Source: Allonocardiopsis opalescens
Lineage (GTDB): Bacteria > Actinomycetota > Actinomycetes > Streptosporangiales > Streptosporangiaceae
Assembly: GCF_003002095.1 (NCBI RefSeq)
Contig: NZ_PVZC01000004.1
Coordinates: 372,001-436,000 of the forward strand
Direction of reading: 5' to 3'
Length of the DNA stretch: 64,000 bases
Shown here: positions 24,642 to 29,215 of the stretch, in pieces
Position numbering within the stretch: the first letter of the stretch is position 1
How the letters are laid out: each line of letters starts with the position of its first letter
Notes under the pieces: model-generated
What the model was told of the DNA's origin: nothing
The model's input: only the letters and a program-made list of their open reading frames with translations
Database searches by the model: none
Program-made: the position numbers and the translations under genes

Positions 24642-25943
24642 TCAGCCCGTCGCCGCCCGCCCCCGCCGCACCGCCTCCACGGCCACGGTTCCCGCCACCG
24701 CGACGGCGATGCCCACCAGCGGGGCGATGAAGAAGCCGGTGGAGTTCGACCACCACGCCGCCGCGCAGGCCAGCGCGTACACGGCCAGGTTCTCCCAGCG
24801 CACCGCGGGCAGGTCCGAGGACTCGGGCAGCCCGGAGCGCCAGCGGCCCAGGAAGTCGCCGATCAGCACCCCGCCCAGCGGCGGGATCAGCACGCCCAGC
24901 CAGGTCAGGTAGTCCAACAGGTGGTCGTAGATGCCGGTCACCGCCAGCAGGGTGCCCGCCGCCACCCCGGCGACCACGAAGGGCTTCTTGGTGCGCGCGT
25001 CGAAGATCTCCGCCCCGGCCACCCCGAAGTTGTAGGCGGTGCTGTCGTTGGTGGTCCAGATGTTGGCGACCAGGAACACCAGGCCCCACACCACCAGCCC
25101 CAGCTGGTACAGCACCAGTACGAAGTCGCCCTCGCCGAAGGCCAGGGCGCCGATCGCGCCGCAGAACAGCATCAGGAACTGGCCCGCCAGGAAGGCCAAC
25201 AGGCAGGCCCAGAACCCGGCCGCCGGGGTGCGGGCGAAGCGCGTCCAGTTGGGCGCCTGGGTGCCGCCCGAGGCGAAGGTGCCCACGATGATCGTGATGG
25301 CCGCCGTCACCGGCATCGAGGCGCTCGGCTCGATCGCGGCCAGCCCCGCCGGGCCGCCCGCCGCGGGTACCGCCCGCACCGTCACCCACCCGGCCAGCAC
25401 CAGCAGCAGCGGCACCGACACCACCGACAGCCAGTACATGCCCTGGTAGCCGATGTAGGCGGTGGCGCCCATCACCACGCCGCCCACCACCATCAGCACC
25501 GCCACGACCGTCGGGTCCTGCCAGCCGAAAGCCTGCGCGGTCAGCAGCGCCAACGTGGCCACCGACACCCCGTACCAGCCCACCTGGGTGCCGCCCAGCA
25601 GCACCGACGCCAGCTTGGCGCCGCCGCGGCCGAAGGCGTAGCGGCTCATCATCACCGTCGTCAGGCTGTGGCGGGCGCCGATCCAGCCGATCACCCCCAC
25701 GTACAGCCCCAGCAGCGCGCTGCCCGCCGCCAGTACGCCCATCAGCGGCCAGAACGCGAAGCCGGTGCCGACCTGGGCGCCGGCGATCATGGTGGGGGTG
25801 AACAGGGTGAAGCCGACCAGGACCACGGCCAGGGAGAACAGCGACTTGCGGGCGTGGCGGGGGACCGGCTCGACCGGGTAGTCGGGATCGACGGGAGTCC
25901 CCGCCGCGCCTCTGTCGGTGTCCGTGCCGGGGTCGCCGGTCAT
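24642..25943 (-). CDS. codB: Cytosine permease, NCS1 family (CodB-like)
   Basis: This is a 433-residue transporter with about twelve membrane helices. NCS1 features include VGFTLFTPTMIAGAQVG in helix 1, FGRGGAKLASVLLGG in the following loop and IWTTNDSTAYNFG in the helix 8 region. The ATG at 25943 overlaps the stop of the upstream deaminase gene (ATGA), so the two are translationally coupled. That coupling points to cytosine or a related base as substrate; NCS1 members also carry purines, allantoin and thiamine precursors. Confidence 0.88.
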   Translation of the reverse strand: MTGDPGTDTDRGAAGTPVDPDYPVEPVPRHARKSLFSLAVVLVGFTLFTPTMIAGAQVGTGFAFWPLMGVLAAGSALLGLYVGVIGWIGARHSLTTVMMSRYAFGRGGAKLASVLLGGTQVGWYGVSVATLALLTAQAFGWQDPTVVAVLMVVGGVVMGATAYIGYQGMYWLSVVSVPLLLVLAGWVTVRAVPAAGGPAGLAAIEPSASMPVTAAITIIVGTFASGGTQAPNWTRFARTPAAGFWACLLAFLAGQFLMLFCGAIGALAFGEGDFVLVLYQLGLVVWGLVFLVANIWTTNDSTAYNFGVAGAEIFDARTKKPFVVAGVAAGTLLAVTGIYDHLLDYLTWLGVLIPPLGGVLIGDFLGRWRSGLPESSDLPAVRWENLAVYALACAAAWWSNSTGFFIAPLVGIAVAVAGTVAVEAVRRGRAATG

Positions 25944-26422
25944 CGCGTTCCCTCTCCGTCCTCGGCGCCGTCCACGCCGATGTCCTCGAACCACAGCTCG
26001 GGGCGCTGCTCGATGAACTCGCTCATCAGCCGCACGCAGCGCTCGTCGTCGAGCACCACGACCTCCACGCCGTGCTCGGCGAGCCAGTCGTGGCCGCCGT
26101 GGAAGGTGCGCGCCTCGCCGATGACCAACCGCGAGATGCCGAACTGGCGGACCAGGCCCGAGCAGTACCAGCACGGCGACAGGGTGGTCACCATCGTGGT
26201 GCCCCGGTAGGTGCGCTGGCGGCCGGCGTCGCGGAAGGCGGCGGTCTCCCCGTGCACCGAGGGGTCGCCGTCCTGCACCCTGCGGTTGCGGCCGCGCCCC
26301 AGCACCGCGCCGTCGGCGCCGACCAGGGCCGCCCCGATCGGGACGCCACCCTCGGCGCGGCCGCGTTCGGCCTCGGCGACGGCGACGTCCAGCCAGGCGC
26401 GGAAGTCGGGGGCGGCGGGCAT
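25940..26422 (-). CDS. Cytosine deaminase, small zinc enzyme of the Fcy1/CDA fold
   Basis: This 160-residue cytidine-deaminase-fold protein has zinc ligands and catalytic Glu in DPSVHGETAAFRD (His and Glu) and SPCWYCSG (two Cys). The HGE form and the C-terminal acidic tail (ELWFEDIGVDG) match the yeast-type cytosine deaminase group rather than tRNA adenosine deaminase. It converts cytosine to uracil and ammonia for pyrimidine salvage. The ATG at 26422 follows TTGGAG. It forms an operon with the CodB-like permease. Confidence 0.88.
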   Translation of the reverse strand: MPAAPDFRAWLDVAVAEAERGRAEGGVPIGAALVGADGAVLGRGRNRRVQDGDPSVHGETAAFRDAGRQRTYRGTTMVTTLSPCWYCSGLVRQFGISRLVIGEARTFHGGHDWLAEHGVEVVVLDDERCVRLMSEFIEQRPELWFEDIGVDGAEDGEGTR

Positions 26423-26449
26423 GGTCGCTCCAAACAGGTGGTGGGTGGG

Positions 26450-26467
26450 CCGGTGCGGCGGCACCGG
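26450..26467 (-). promoter_or_regulatory. Hairpin/palindrome in the codA leader
   Basis: CCGGTGC-GGCG-GCACCGG lies 27 nt before the deaminase start and next to an AT-richer patch (26468-26476). It could be a regulator site or a leader hairpin for the codA-codB pair. No regulator gene is adjacent. Confidence 0.4.
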
Positions 26468-27809: not shown

Positions 27810-27876
27810 GTTTCCGTATCGGAAACTCGTGAGTTGACAACTTGGAAACTCGGTGCTTGACTTTCCGACATGGAAA
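27810..27876 (+). promoter_or_regulatory. Promoter with two identical operator sites
   Basis: The element TTTCC-N5-GGAAA occurs at 27811-27825 and again at 27862-27876, 51 bp apart. The first is extended to a perfect GTTTCCG-TAT-CGGAAAC. A lone half-site GGAAACT sits at 27844-27850. A consensus -35 TTGACA at 27834-27839 is 17 bp before TTGACT at 27857-27862. That would place the transcript start at the ATG of 27870, giving a leaderless mRNA. The second site covers that start. Confidence 0.7.
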
Positions 27877-28313
27877 CTGAAGCAGGGGCCGCGTCCCGCC
27901 CCACCCCCGAAGAGGCAGCCCGCGTCCTGGACCAGATCGGCCGCGACCGCGACGCCGTCCGCCGGCTGCCCGCGCCCGCCTGGTACTTCCCGGCCGTGGC
28001 CGCGATGGTCGCCGCCGCCCACCTCTCCCAGCTGCTGCCGTCCCCCGTCGGCGCGCTGGTCGCCCTCGCCGTCGTCGCGGCCGCCGTGCTGGCGGTGCGC
28101 CGCCACGCCGACGCCCTGGGCGTCGTCGGCTGGTCGGTCCCGCCCCGGATCTGGCTGCCGATGGGAGCCCTCATCGCCACCGCCCCCGCCGCCGCCGTCC
28201 TGGACCAGGTGTACGGCCAGCGCTGGGCCTGGATCGCGGCCGCCGCCCTGGGCGCGGGCGCCGTGCTGGCCTGGGGCGCCCTGCACCGGCGCGCCGTGGA
28301 GCGCGGGGCGTGA
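27870..28313 (+). CDS. Four-helix membrane protein of a regulator operon
   Basis: This is a 147-residue protein with a short acidic cytoplasmic N-terminus (PTPEEAARVLDQIGRDRDAV) and four membrane helices (about 40-58, 61-80, 96-115 and 120-140). The family is not recognised. Its stop overlaps the GTG of a winged-helix regulator (GTGA). Similar membrane-protein/wHTH pairs are common in actinobacteria, where the membrane partner may sense or be controlled by the regulator. The start is probably leaderless. Confidence 0.78.
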   Translation: METEAGAASRPTPEEAARVLDQIGRDRDAVRRLPAPAWYFPAVAAMVAAAHLSQLLPSPVGALVALAVVAAAVLAVRRHADALGVVGWSVPPRIWLPMGALIATAPAAAVLDQVYGQRWAWIAAAALGAGAVLAWGALHRRAVERGA

Positions 28314-28618
28314 CCGACGGCGACGGCTTCGACGCCACGATCCACGCCCCCAACCGGCTGCGGGTGTGCGCCCTGCTCGACGCGGTCAGCGAGGCGGAGT
28401 TCGGCACCGTCCAGCAGCAGCTGGAGGTGAGCGCGTCGGTGCTCAGCAAGCACGTCGGCGTGCTCGCCGACGCCGGCTACGTCGCCCAGCGGCACGCCGT
28501 GCGCGACACCCGCCGCCGCGTCTGGCTGAGCCTAACCGCCGAGGGGCGGCGCGCCTACCGCGCCCACGTCGCCGCCCTGCGGGCCATCGTCGGCGAGGCC
28601 GAGGGCGCGGGCGCGTGA
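28310..28618 (+). CDS. Small winged-helix transcriptional regulator (HTH_34/MarR-like)
   Basis: This 102-residue protein is almost entirely a winged helix: NRLRVCALLDAVSEAEFGTVQQQLEV, the recognition region SASVLSKHVGVLADAGYV and the wing DTRRRVWLSLTAEGRRAY. The GTG at 28310 overlaps the upstream stop. It is the obvious candidate to bind the paired TTTCC-N5-GGAAA sites at 27810-27876 and so autoregulate the operon. Confidence 0.88.
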   Translation: MTDGDGFDATIHAPNRLRVCALLDAVSEAEFGTVQQQLEVSASVLSKHVGVLADAGYVAQRHAVRDTRRRVWLSLTAEGRRAYRAHVAALRAIVGEAEGAGA

Positions 28619-28683: not shown

Positions 28684-29215
28684 TCAGGCGGGCGGCTCCA
28701 GGGCGTCGGCCAGCCGGCGCATCCGGTCGGCGAACTCCGCTGGGGCCGACGGCAGGCTCTGCCACACGTCGGCGTAGGCGGCGGCCCGCCGCAGCGCGAT
28801 GTCGGAGACCCCGCCCAGCATGATCGGCACCGGCGTGGAGGGCACCGGCGCGAACACGCCCTCGCCGAAGCCGTCGTGCTCGCCCTCGAAGGGGCCGCCG
28901 CCGTGCCCGAATAGCCGCAGCGCCCCCTCGGCCCGCGCCCCCCGCCCGGCGAAGGGCACCGCAGGGATCGCGCAGCGGCAGCACCAGCACCGACGTGCCC
29001 AGCCGGACCGACCGCGTGAGCGCCGCGGCACGGGCCGGCGTGACCAGCGGCTCGTACACCCCGCCGTAGCGCAGGCCCTAGGGCTCGGGCGGCAGCACGT
29101 GGTCGGGCGGCCACACCGCCCGGTAGCCCAGCCGCTCCGCCGGCACCTCCGGCTGCGCGATCAGCCCCGGCGCCTGTTCCGCCGACTCATCGGGCAGCAC
29201 GACCTGCAACTCTAC
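28684..29215 (-). pseudogene. Decayed luciferase-like (LLM) flavin monooxygenase
   Basis: Pieces of one LLM protein can be read in order on the minus strand: ELQVVLPDESAEQAPG, GYRAVWPPDHVLPPEP, an in-frame TAG (29080-29078), YGGVYEPLVTPARAAAL, RLGTSVLVLPLRDP. There is then a frame change near 28965, and after it FEGEHDGFGEGVFAP, VPIMLGGVSDIALRRAAAYAD and a normal C-terminus. The section between RDP and the second part is shorter than in intact relatives, so sequence was also deleted. The expected initiator codon is GTA. Several independent lesions make a sequencing error unlikely. Confidence 0.8.

Follow-up and report, generated by a model that had tools for sequence, protein, structure and literature searches.

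This locus raises the question of how two small overlapping genes, preceded by duplicated palindromes, are controlled, and what part the membrane protein encoded by the first of them might play in that control. Within the window, by which the whole analysed stretch of 64,000 nucleotides is meant, the pair consists of an ORF for a 147-residue membrane protein (27870..28313, + strand) and the gene of a 102-residue winged-helix regulator of the HTH_34 family (28310..28618, +), which begins with GTG. As the first-pass annotation had it, the stop of the membrane gene overlaps the regulator gene, the two ORFs sharing the four bases GTGA. The reading preferred here is that of a self-contained autorepressed cassette in which the membrane protein serves as sensor, anti-repressor and output, and taken as a whole we give it an even chance of being right.

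Three operator sites, all given on the + strand, lie upstream of the membrane gene or over its start. O1 (TTTCCGTATCGGAAA, 27811..27825) is found at -59 to -45 from the ATG and O3 (TTTCCGACATGGAAA, 27862..27876) at -8 to +7, over the start codon. Both match TTTCC-N5-GGAAA exactly, and the two palindromes with identical half-sites that had been reported 51 bp apart are therefore present. Between them a lone half-site had been described at 27844-27848. This GGAAA belongs instead, as its right half, to a third operator, O2 (TTGACAACTTGGAAA, 27834..27848, at -36 to -22), which reads TTGAC-N5-GGAAA, has the -35 box as its left half and is kept in relatives. The G+C content is 45% across the 66 bp from O1 to O3 versus 76% in the window. 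When one mismatch to TTTCC-N5-GGAAA was allowed, O1 and O3 stood alone in the 64,000 nucleotides; 100 shuffled windows had a mean of 0.09 such sites, and none had two.

A genome search with this motif had been expected to reveal a regulon, an expectation that was not borne out, as the Allonocardiopsis opalescens genome (6,970,775 bp) has no exact sites beyond the O1 and O3 of the operon, with about 0.47 expected from base composition. A 21-bp extended form of the site, allowed up to three mismatches in the same genome, gave four forward matches versus six in the reversed control; O3 is one of the four, and O1 falls short of the extended form. As no further target sites turned up in its own genome, control by the cassette seems to be directed mainly at its membrane protein, which for the same reason would be both sensor and output.

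The promoter is interwoven with these operators. The -35 element TTGACA (27834..27839, +) lies within O2 and is followed, after a 17-bp spacer, by a weak -10 position, TTGACT (27857..27862, +), the last base of which is the first base of O3. Thus the TTGACA box of the promoter originally proposed holds, whereas the window's own -10 hexamer is poor, and no sigma-70 promoter was scored at this locus by a consensus scan. For this reason the -10 position, and with it the claim of a leaderless transcript, rests on the relatives. These were examined as 65 arrays chosen by their O2-O3 pattern, after seven of 72 windows had been removed as reverse-strand reads of sites already counted. G occupies -34 in 47 arrays (TT at -36/-35 and C at -32 being set by the search pattern), while T at -13 is found in 50, A at -12 in 48 and a complete TANNNT, the last T of which is again set by the pattern, in 35. 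The base at -1 is a pyrimidine (C or T) in all 65 arrays, A stands at +1 in 62, and no Shine-Dalgarno-like match precedes 26 of 27 membrane-gene starts. This conservation supports the earlier placing of the transcript start at the ATG: judging from the relatives, transcription would begin at its A (27870, +) and yield a leaderless mRNA.

With this geometry, a dimer of the HTH_34 regulator would bind each of O1, O2 and O3. O2 contains the -35 element, and O3 takes in the -10 edge, the predicted transcript start and the first codons; with three dimer sites spanning -59 to +7, the bound regulator should exclude RNA polymerase. Autorepression by such promoter occlusion is predicted, and we regard it as highly probable.

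The conservation of the array was assessed in relatives collected by membrane-protein sequence alone, which were found at 31 places in 28 of 200 family genomes. The alignment (A1) holds 27 of them and leaves out L028, L030 and one place in genome G046, which are short matches, two with internal stops, as well as L029, in which the script found no start and which has no array. O3 lies over the ATG at nine or more of its ten positions in 25 of the 27 membrane-selected genes, and O2 is present at eight or more of ten in 25 as well (23 at 28 bp and two at 29 bp upstream of O3). O1, at eight or more of ten positions, occurs in 16 (15 at 51 bp and one at 52 bp upstream of O3) and is absent in 11, which suggests that it is dispensable in some lineages. 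Farther upstream of the same genes an equal score was reached at 3 of 9,180 positions. This comparative analysis of the membrane partner, foreseen in the first-pass annotation, shows the array to be kept in its relatives.

These counts bear on the possibility that the regulator is an activator which recruits RNA polymerase from O1 and perhaps O2. O1 does lie directly upstream of the -35 box, a position used by activators. However, conservation is highest for O2 and O3, the sites over the -35, the -10 edge and the start, and it is O1 that is most often absent (16 versus 25 and 25 of 27), so that activation is given only a small chance.

A second collection was made by means of the regulator and overlaps the first (L038 is the same locus as L008, for example). 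Among the best 80 of its 172 loci, O1 was present at seven or more of ten positions, 50-52 bp upstream, in 65, and O2 was recognised in 71, the right half GGAAA also being found in 71. The left halves of the recognised O2 sites are TTGCC in 28, TTGAC in 23 and TTTCC in 19. O2 is a perfect palindrome in some Streptomyces, and all three sites are perfect, with 23- and 28-bp spacing, in the Streptomyces loci L050, L078, L101 and L114. It would appear that the same five bases serve as -35 box and as operator half-site and that lineages differ in the role that is favoured. Two of the 27 membrane genes, at L021 and L025, are without the array and have an inverted repeat, CAAGTGAAACACTTG (L021:1460-1478 and L025:1474-1488), immediately 5' of ATGGAAA. 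In the regulators of these two loci LSEANLSK replaces SASVLSK, a hint that their operator specificity may have changed. A different operator was also considered for L024 and rejected, because the usual 28-bp array is found there with TTGCC left halves.

The position of O3 appears to have consequences for the protein. Codon 2 is GAA in all 27 membrane genes (related sequences, in which the ATG of O3 was taken where there were several in-frame ATGs), whereas elsewhere in the same genes GAA makes up 30 of the 142 Glu codons. The conserved Met-Glu start is hence best read as a constraint that operator O3 places on the coding sequence at the DNA level. The present locus is a clear case of a gene whose first codons appear to be set by the site of its regulator.

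An ATG within the second palindrome (27870) as the start of a gene for a four-helix protein had already been noticed, and the helices agree with the AlphaFold2 model (mean pLDDT 82.4). In addition to the four membrane helices, which are joined by short loops, the protein has a charged N-terminal helix at residues 13-31, and it has no recognisable sensor domain. It reached the cut-off of no Pfam or NCBIfam family and had no match in PADLOC or PHROGs. A Foldseek search with the model returned nothing at E 0.001 or better, the best value being 3.8. Chemoreceptor ligand domains, compared by applying VIA-align 2 to the Foldseek list (Z at most 7.4, 4.5 A, 113 residues), were dismissed as a resemblance at the level of helical bundles. 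Weak family matches to ThrE, AMO, RseC_MucC, tdt and others, each in one or two of the 27 relatives and with a best E of 1e-4, were set aside as chance hydrophobic similarity.

The regulator is a member of HTH_34 (PF13601), with 66.2 bits against a Pfam gathering cut-off of 27; its scores for MarR_2 (PF12802, 19.4 bits, cut-off 27) and ArsR/SmtB (NF033788, 32.1 bits, cut-off 55) are below the respective thresholds. Its AlphaFold2 model (pLDDT 90.6) has a winged-helix fold, for which Foldseek found 18 PDB chains with E values of 0.001 or below. The best of them is 1ub9, the protein PH1061 of Pyrococcus horikoshii (E 4.1e-5 and a TM-score of 0.81 over 87 columns), to which the regulator also has a profile match (E 4.1e-7); the identity is 24%, and the single regulator sequence found no match in the PDB at 0.001. 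No match was obtained in PHROGs, and PADLOC matches to Csa3/CARF (best 25.2 bits) were weak and taken as the shared winged-helix signal. The motif S-x-L-S-K is found in 40 of 42 array-bearing regulators (counted at the first LSK that the script met), the residue that follows is H or Q in 41 of the 42, and in the light of the model this segment is the putative recognition helix. Among plasmid records, 41 have a regulator-like match, 26 of them from Streptomyces, and just one is at 60% identity or more.

A single cysteine, in the motif RLRIC, attracts attention, since its oxidation might release the regulator from DNA as a thiol switch. It is invariant in the 25 regulators of alignment A2, which takes in 25 of the 27 loci and lacks L031, where the regulator is broken, and L023, where the script missed the motif and the regulator is intact on inspection. 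It is also found in all of the best 80 of 172 regulator-selected loci, one of the two search seeds having contained it. Nevertheless, nine of the 42 regulators that stand behind an operator array have no cysteine at all. A thiol switch cannot then be the shared mechanism; it was rejected as a general one and is left with barely any chance.

The cassette occurs in many actinobacteria, spanning at least eight family groups, and its DNA pattern alone is enough to locate it. TTGAC-N5-GGAAA-N13-TTTCC-N3-ATGGAAA occurs in 26 of 297 order genomes, with one match each. A looser pattern occurs in 23 of 394 class genomes, among which one genome has two sites and one site is read on both strands, and its matches fall in eight family groups, that of A. 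opalescens included. The reversed pattern, used as a control, had no matches in either the 297 order or the 394 class genomes. Downstream of the 42 distinct sites, the regulator profile matched in all 42 and the membrane profile in 41 (L183 was missed and L181 is weak, at 0.002). The script looked, close to where the first ORF ends, for a regulator ORF with the residues LSK, and its choice of starts leans to the 4-bp overlap. As 19 of the 42 sites belong to genomes used for the profile alignments, the 23 outside them were also counted, and there the regulator was found at 23 and the membrane protein at 22. A phylum-wide search with the A1 protein profile found five of 396 genomes, compared with 23 of 394 class genomes for DNA, and the protein profile is thus the less sensitive probe.

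The two genes are also closely coupled. The membrane gene adjoins the regulator gene in 71 of the best 80 of 172 regulator-selected loci, and 67 of the 71 pairs have the 4-bp overlap, a count biased upwards by choosing the start nearest to such an overlap. Distances between regulators and between membrane proteins correlate over the 71 pairs (r = 0.83, species descent not being controlled), with a mean of 0.61 for the membrane protein versus 0.24 for the regulator. Pairing and parallel divergence favour a physical partnership, and the passing of a signal from the membrane protein to the regulator would fit the tight pairing. Flanking frames of at least 150 residues within about 2 kb are not shared, the largest cluster covering six of the 80 loci.

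By the rules of the script, nine of the 80 loci are without a membrane ORF started at O3 (L052, L056, L070, L073, L074, L080, L083, L100 and L115), and all but L080 were inspected. L052, L074 and L115 retain the operators, with the membrane start shifted or lost; L100 is cut by a contig end, and the remaining inspected loci have what looks like a truncated or altered membrane gene. Extra copies of the operon are found in two genomes. In G085 (L172, G085:C1:4032000-4042500) two copies lie about 6.4 kb apart and the second has a truncated regulator, and in G122 (contig C1, L031/L174) the regulator frame of the second copy is broken. Both extra copies keep the operators and the membrane gene, and an intact regulator is encoded elsewhere in each genome, which suggests control in trans and a membrane protein that is of value by itself.

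These copies can be cited in support of a regulator that binds a small molecule in the manner of MarR and so releases the DNA, with the membrane protein acting as effector only (a pump, an immunity protein or a protection of the membrane) and never contacting the regulator. The regulator fold is indeed near to ligand-binding MarR-type proteins, and the membrane genes kept beside broken regulators suggest an effector that is useful in itself. However, with just 102 residues the regulator has little room beyond the winged helix, and the pair stays together though the membrane protein diverges far more (0.61 versus 0.24). We consider this reading rather unlikely. The same copies weigh against an addiction module of the toxin-antitoxin kind, composed of a membrane toxin and a DNA-binding antitoxin. 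Two small overlapping genes with a signature of autoregulation, patchy occurrence (23 of 394 class genomes) and unshared flanks are what such a module could present, but two copies have kept the membrane gene beside a broken regulator, even if an intact one is found elsewhere in those genomes, and the membrane protein is without a match in PADLOC or PHROGs. Its chance is a slim one.

Palindromes flanked by G or C were counted in 26 array-bearing genomes, which have zero to six each (at least one in 24 of the 26), with zero to one in the control; those of G085 and G122 include the sites of the extra operon copies. One palindrome of G085, located after a tRNA, looks like a terminator by eye. A different palindrome, CTTTCCTNNGAGGAAAG-like and paired at a distance of 26 bp, was seen at G025:C3:78222-78264 and G258:C1:3043505-3043547, and these pairs are probably the sites of another regulator.

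For the cassette reading, the way in which the membrane protein might lift repression can be modelled on known systems. The SdpRI pair of Bacillus subtilis is described as an autorepressor, SdpR, and a membrane immunity and receptor protein, SdpI, which upon arrival of the ligand sequesters SdpR at the membrane (PMC1626106). The pair in the window is likewise a two-gene unit of a polytopic membrane protein and a small winged-helix regulator, which is an autorepressor in SdpRI. Nevertheless, its regulator, with 15.7 bits, stays far below the SdpR threshold (NF033789, 100 bits), and neither its membrane protein nor the 27 aligned relatives match the SdpI family. It further differs from SdpRI in its three-operator leaderless promoter and in that no toxin genes were seen among the shared flanks of loci of its type. 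HAAS-PadR dyads, in which a membrane protein is genomically coupled to a stand-alone winged-helix regulator, are proposed as an alternative to two-component systems (PMC11237479). The pair in the window shows the same kind of coupling, whereas its regulator has 13.6 bits for PadR (PF03551, cut-off 27) and no DUF1700/HAAS match was found at E 0.01 for the membrane protein of the window or the 27 relatives. CrtR of Corynebacterium glutamicum, a negative autoregulator of the MarR type that is reported to have a leaderless transcript and acts on carotenoid genes (PMC5401885), resembles the regulator of the window as a small actinobacterial winged-helix protein, leaderless and autorepressed in CrtR and predicted to be so here. 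The three-operator array and the paired membrane protein set the present system apart, neither being described for CrtR in the section of that report at hand. The cassette would work like SdpRI and HAAS-PadR but, by the tests made, is a member of neither, its regulator belonging to HTH_34. Among the papers listed by a search that left most subscription journals outside, none dealt with this gene pair.

On the analogy with SdpI/SdpR and HAAS-PadR, the membrane protein of the cassette is proposed as sensor, anti-repressor and output. The regulator would be translated by coupling through the 4-bp overlap, and the four-helix protein, made at a low basal level, would meet a stimulus linked to the membrane. 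Once stimulated it would bind the regulator, for which its conserved N-terminal helix may be used, and prevent it from returning to the DNA, with increased synthesis of the membrane protein as the result. Several points count against this reading: the absence of O1 in 11 of 27 genes, the poor -10 of the window and the incomplete TANNNT in many arrays, the nine regulator loci without an O3-started membrane ORF, the two membrane genes (L021 and L025) with another inverted repeat, and a membrane protein with short loops and no recognisable sensor domain. The analysis establishes the sites with their conservation and their association with both genes, the family of the regulator and the constraint on the codons at O3; that the regulator binds the DNA and represses rather than activates, that the transcript is leaderless, and what kind of stimulus acts are inferences, and for anti-repression by the membrane protein the chances are about equally divided. 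It is put forward as a tentative and somewhat doubtful proposal that the cassette represents an undescribed signalling class, in which a four-helix protein would itself lift an HTH_34 repressor from a leaderless promoter with three operators, and in which the -35, the -10 edge, the start and the first codons all belong to operator sequence.

HTH_34 regulators paired with membrane proteins may form a broader theme, within which the unit in the window would be a leaderless branch. Two further HTH_34 genes of the same genome are over the cut-off, L033 (G000:C10:197646-197873) and L034 (G000:C2:512126-512359), and by eye each lies directly 3' of a long hydrophobic ORF resembling a membrane protein. 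L034 has, also by eye, a related palindrome, CTTTCCATATCGAAAG, near its -10, yet its leader has a normal ribosome-binding site. Such pairs, seemingly three in this genome, may thus be a broader alternative to two-component systems. The present one gives an uncharacterised and widespread membrane-protein family that is defined by a conserved operator signature and tied to one regulator, and this signature makes the input testable.

Two observations concern the neighbourhood of the pair in the window. A luciferase-like F420 oxidoreductase is represented at 28684-29114 (- strand) by pieces in more than one frame; coverage of TIGR03619 is limited to positions 111-202 out of 247, and the gene therefore looks like a remnant. 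At 24642-26460 (-) a cytosine/purine permease (PF02133) is encoded, next to a frame which, by its motif, we take to be deaminase-like.
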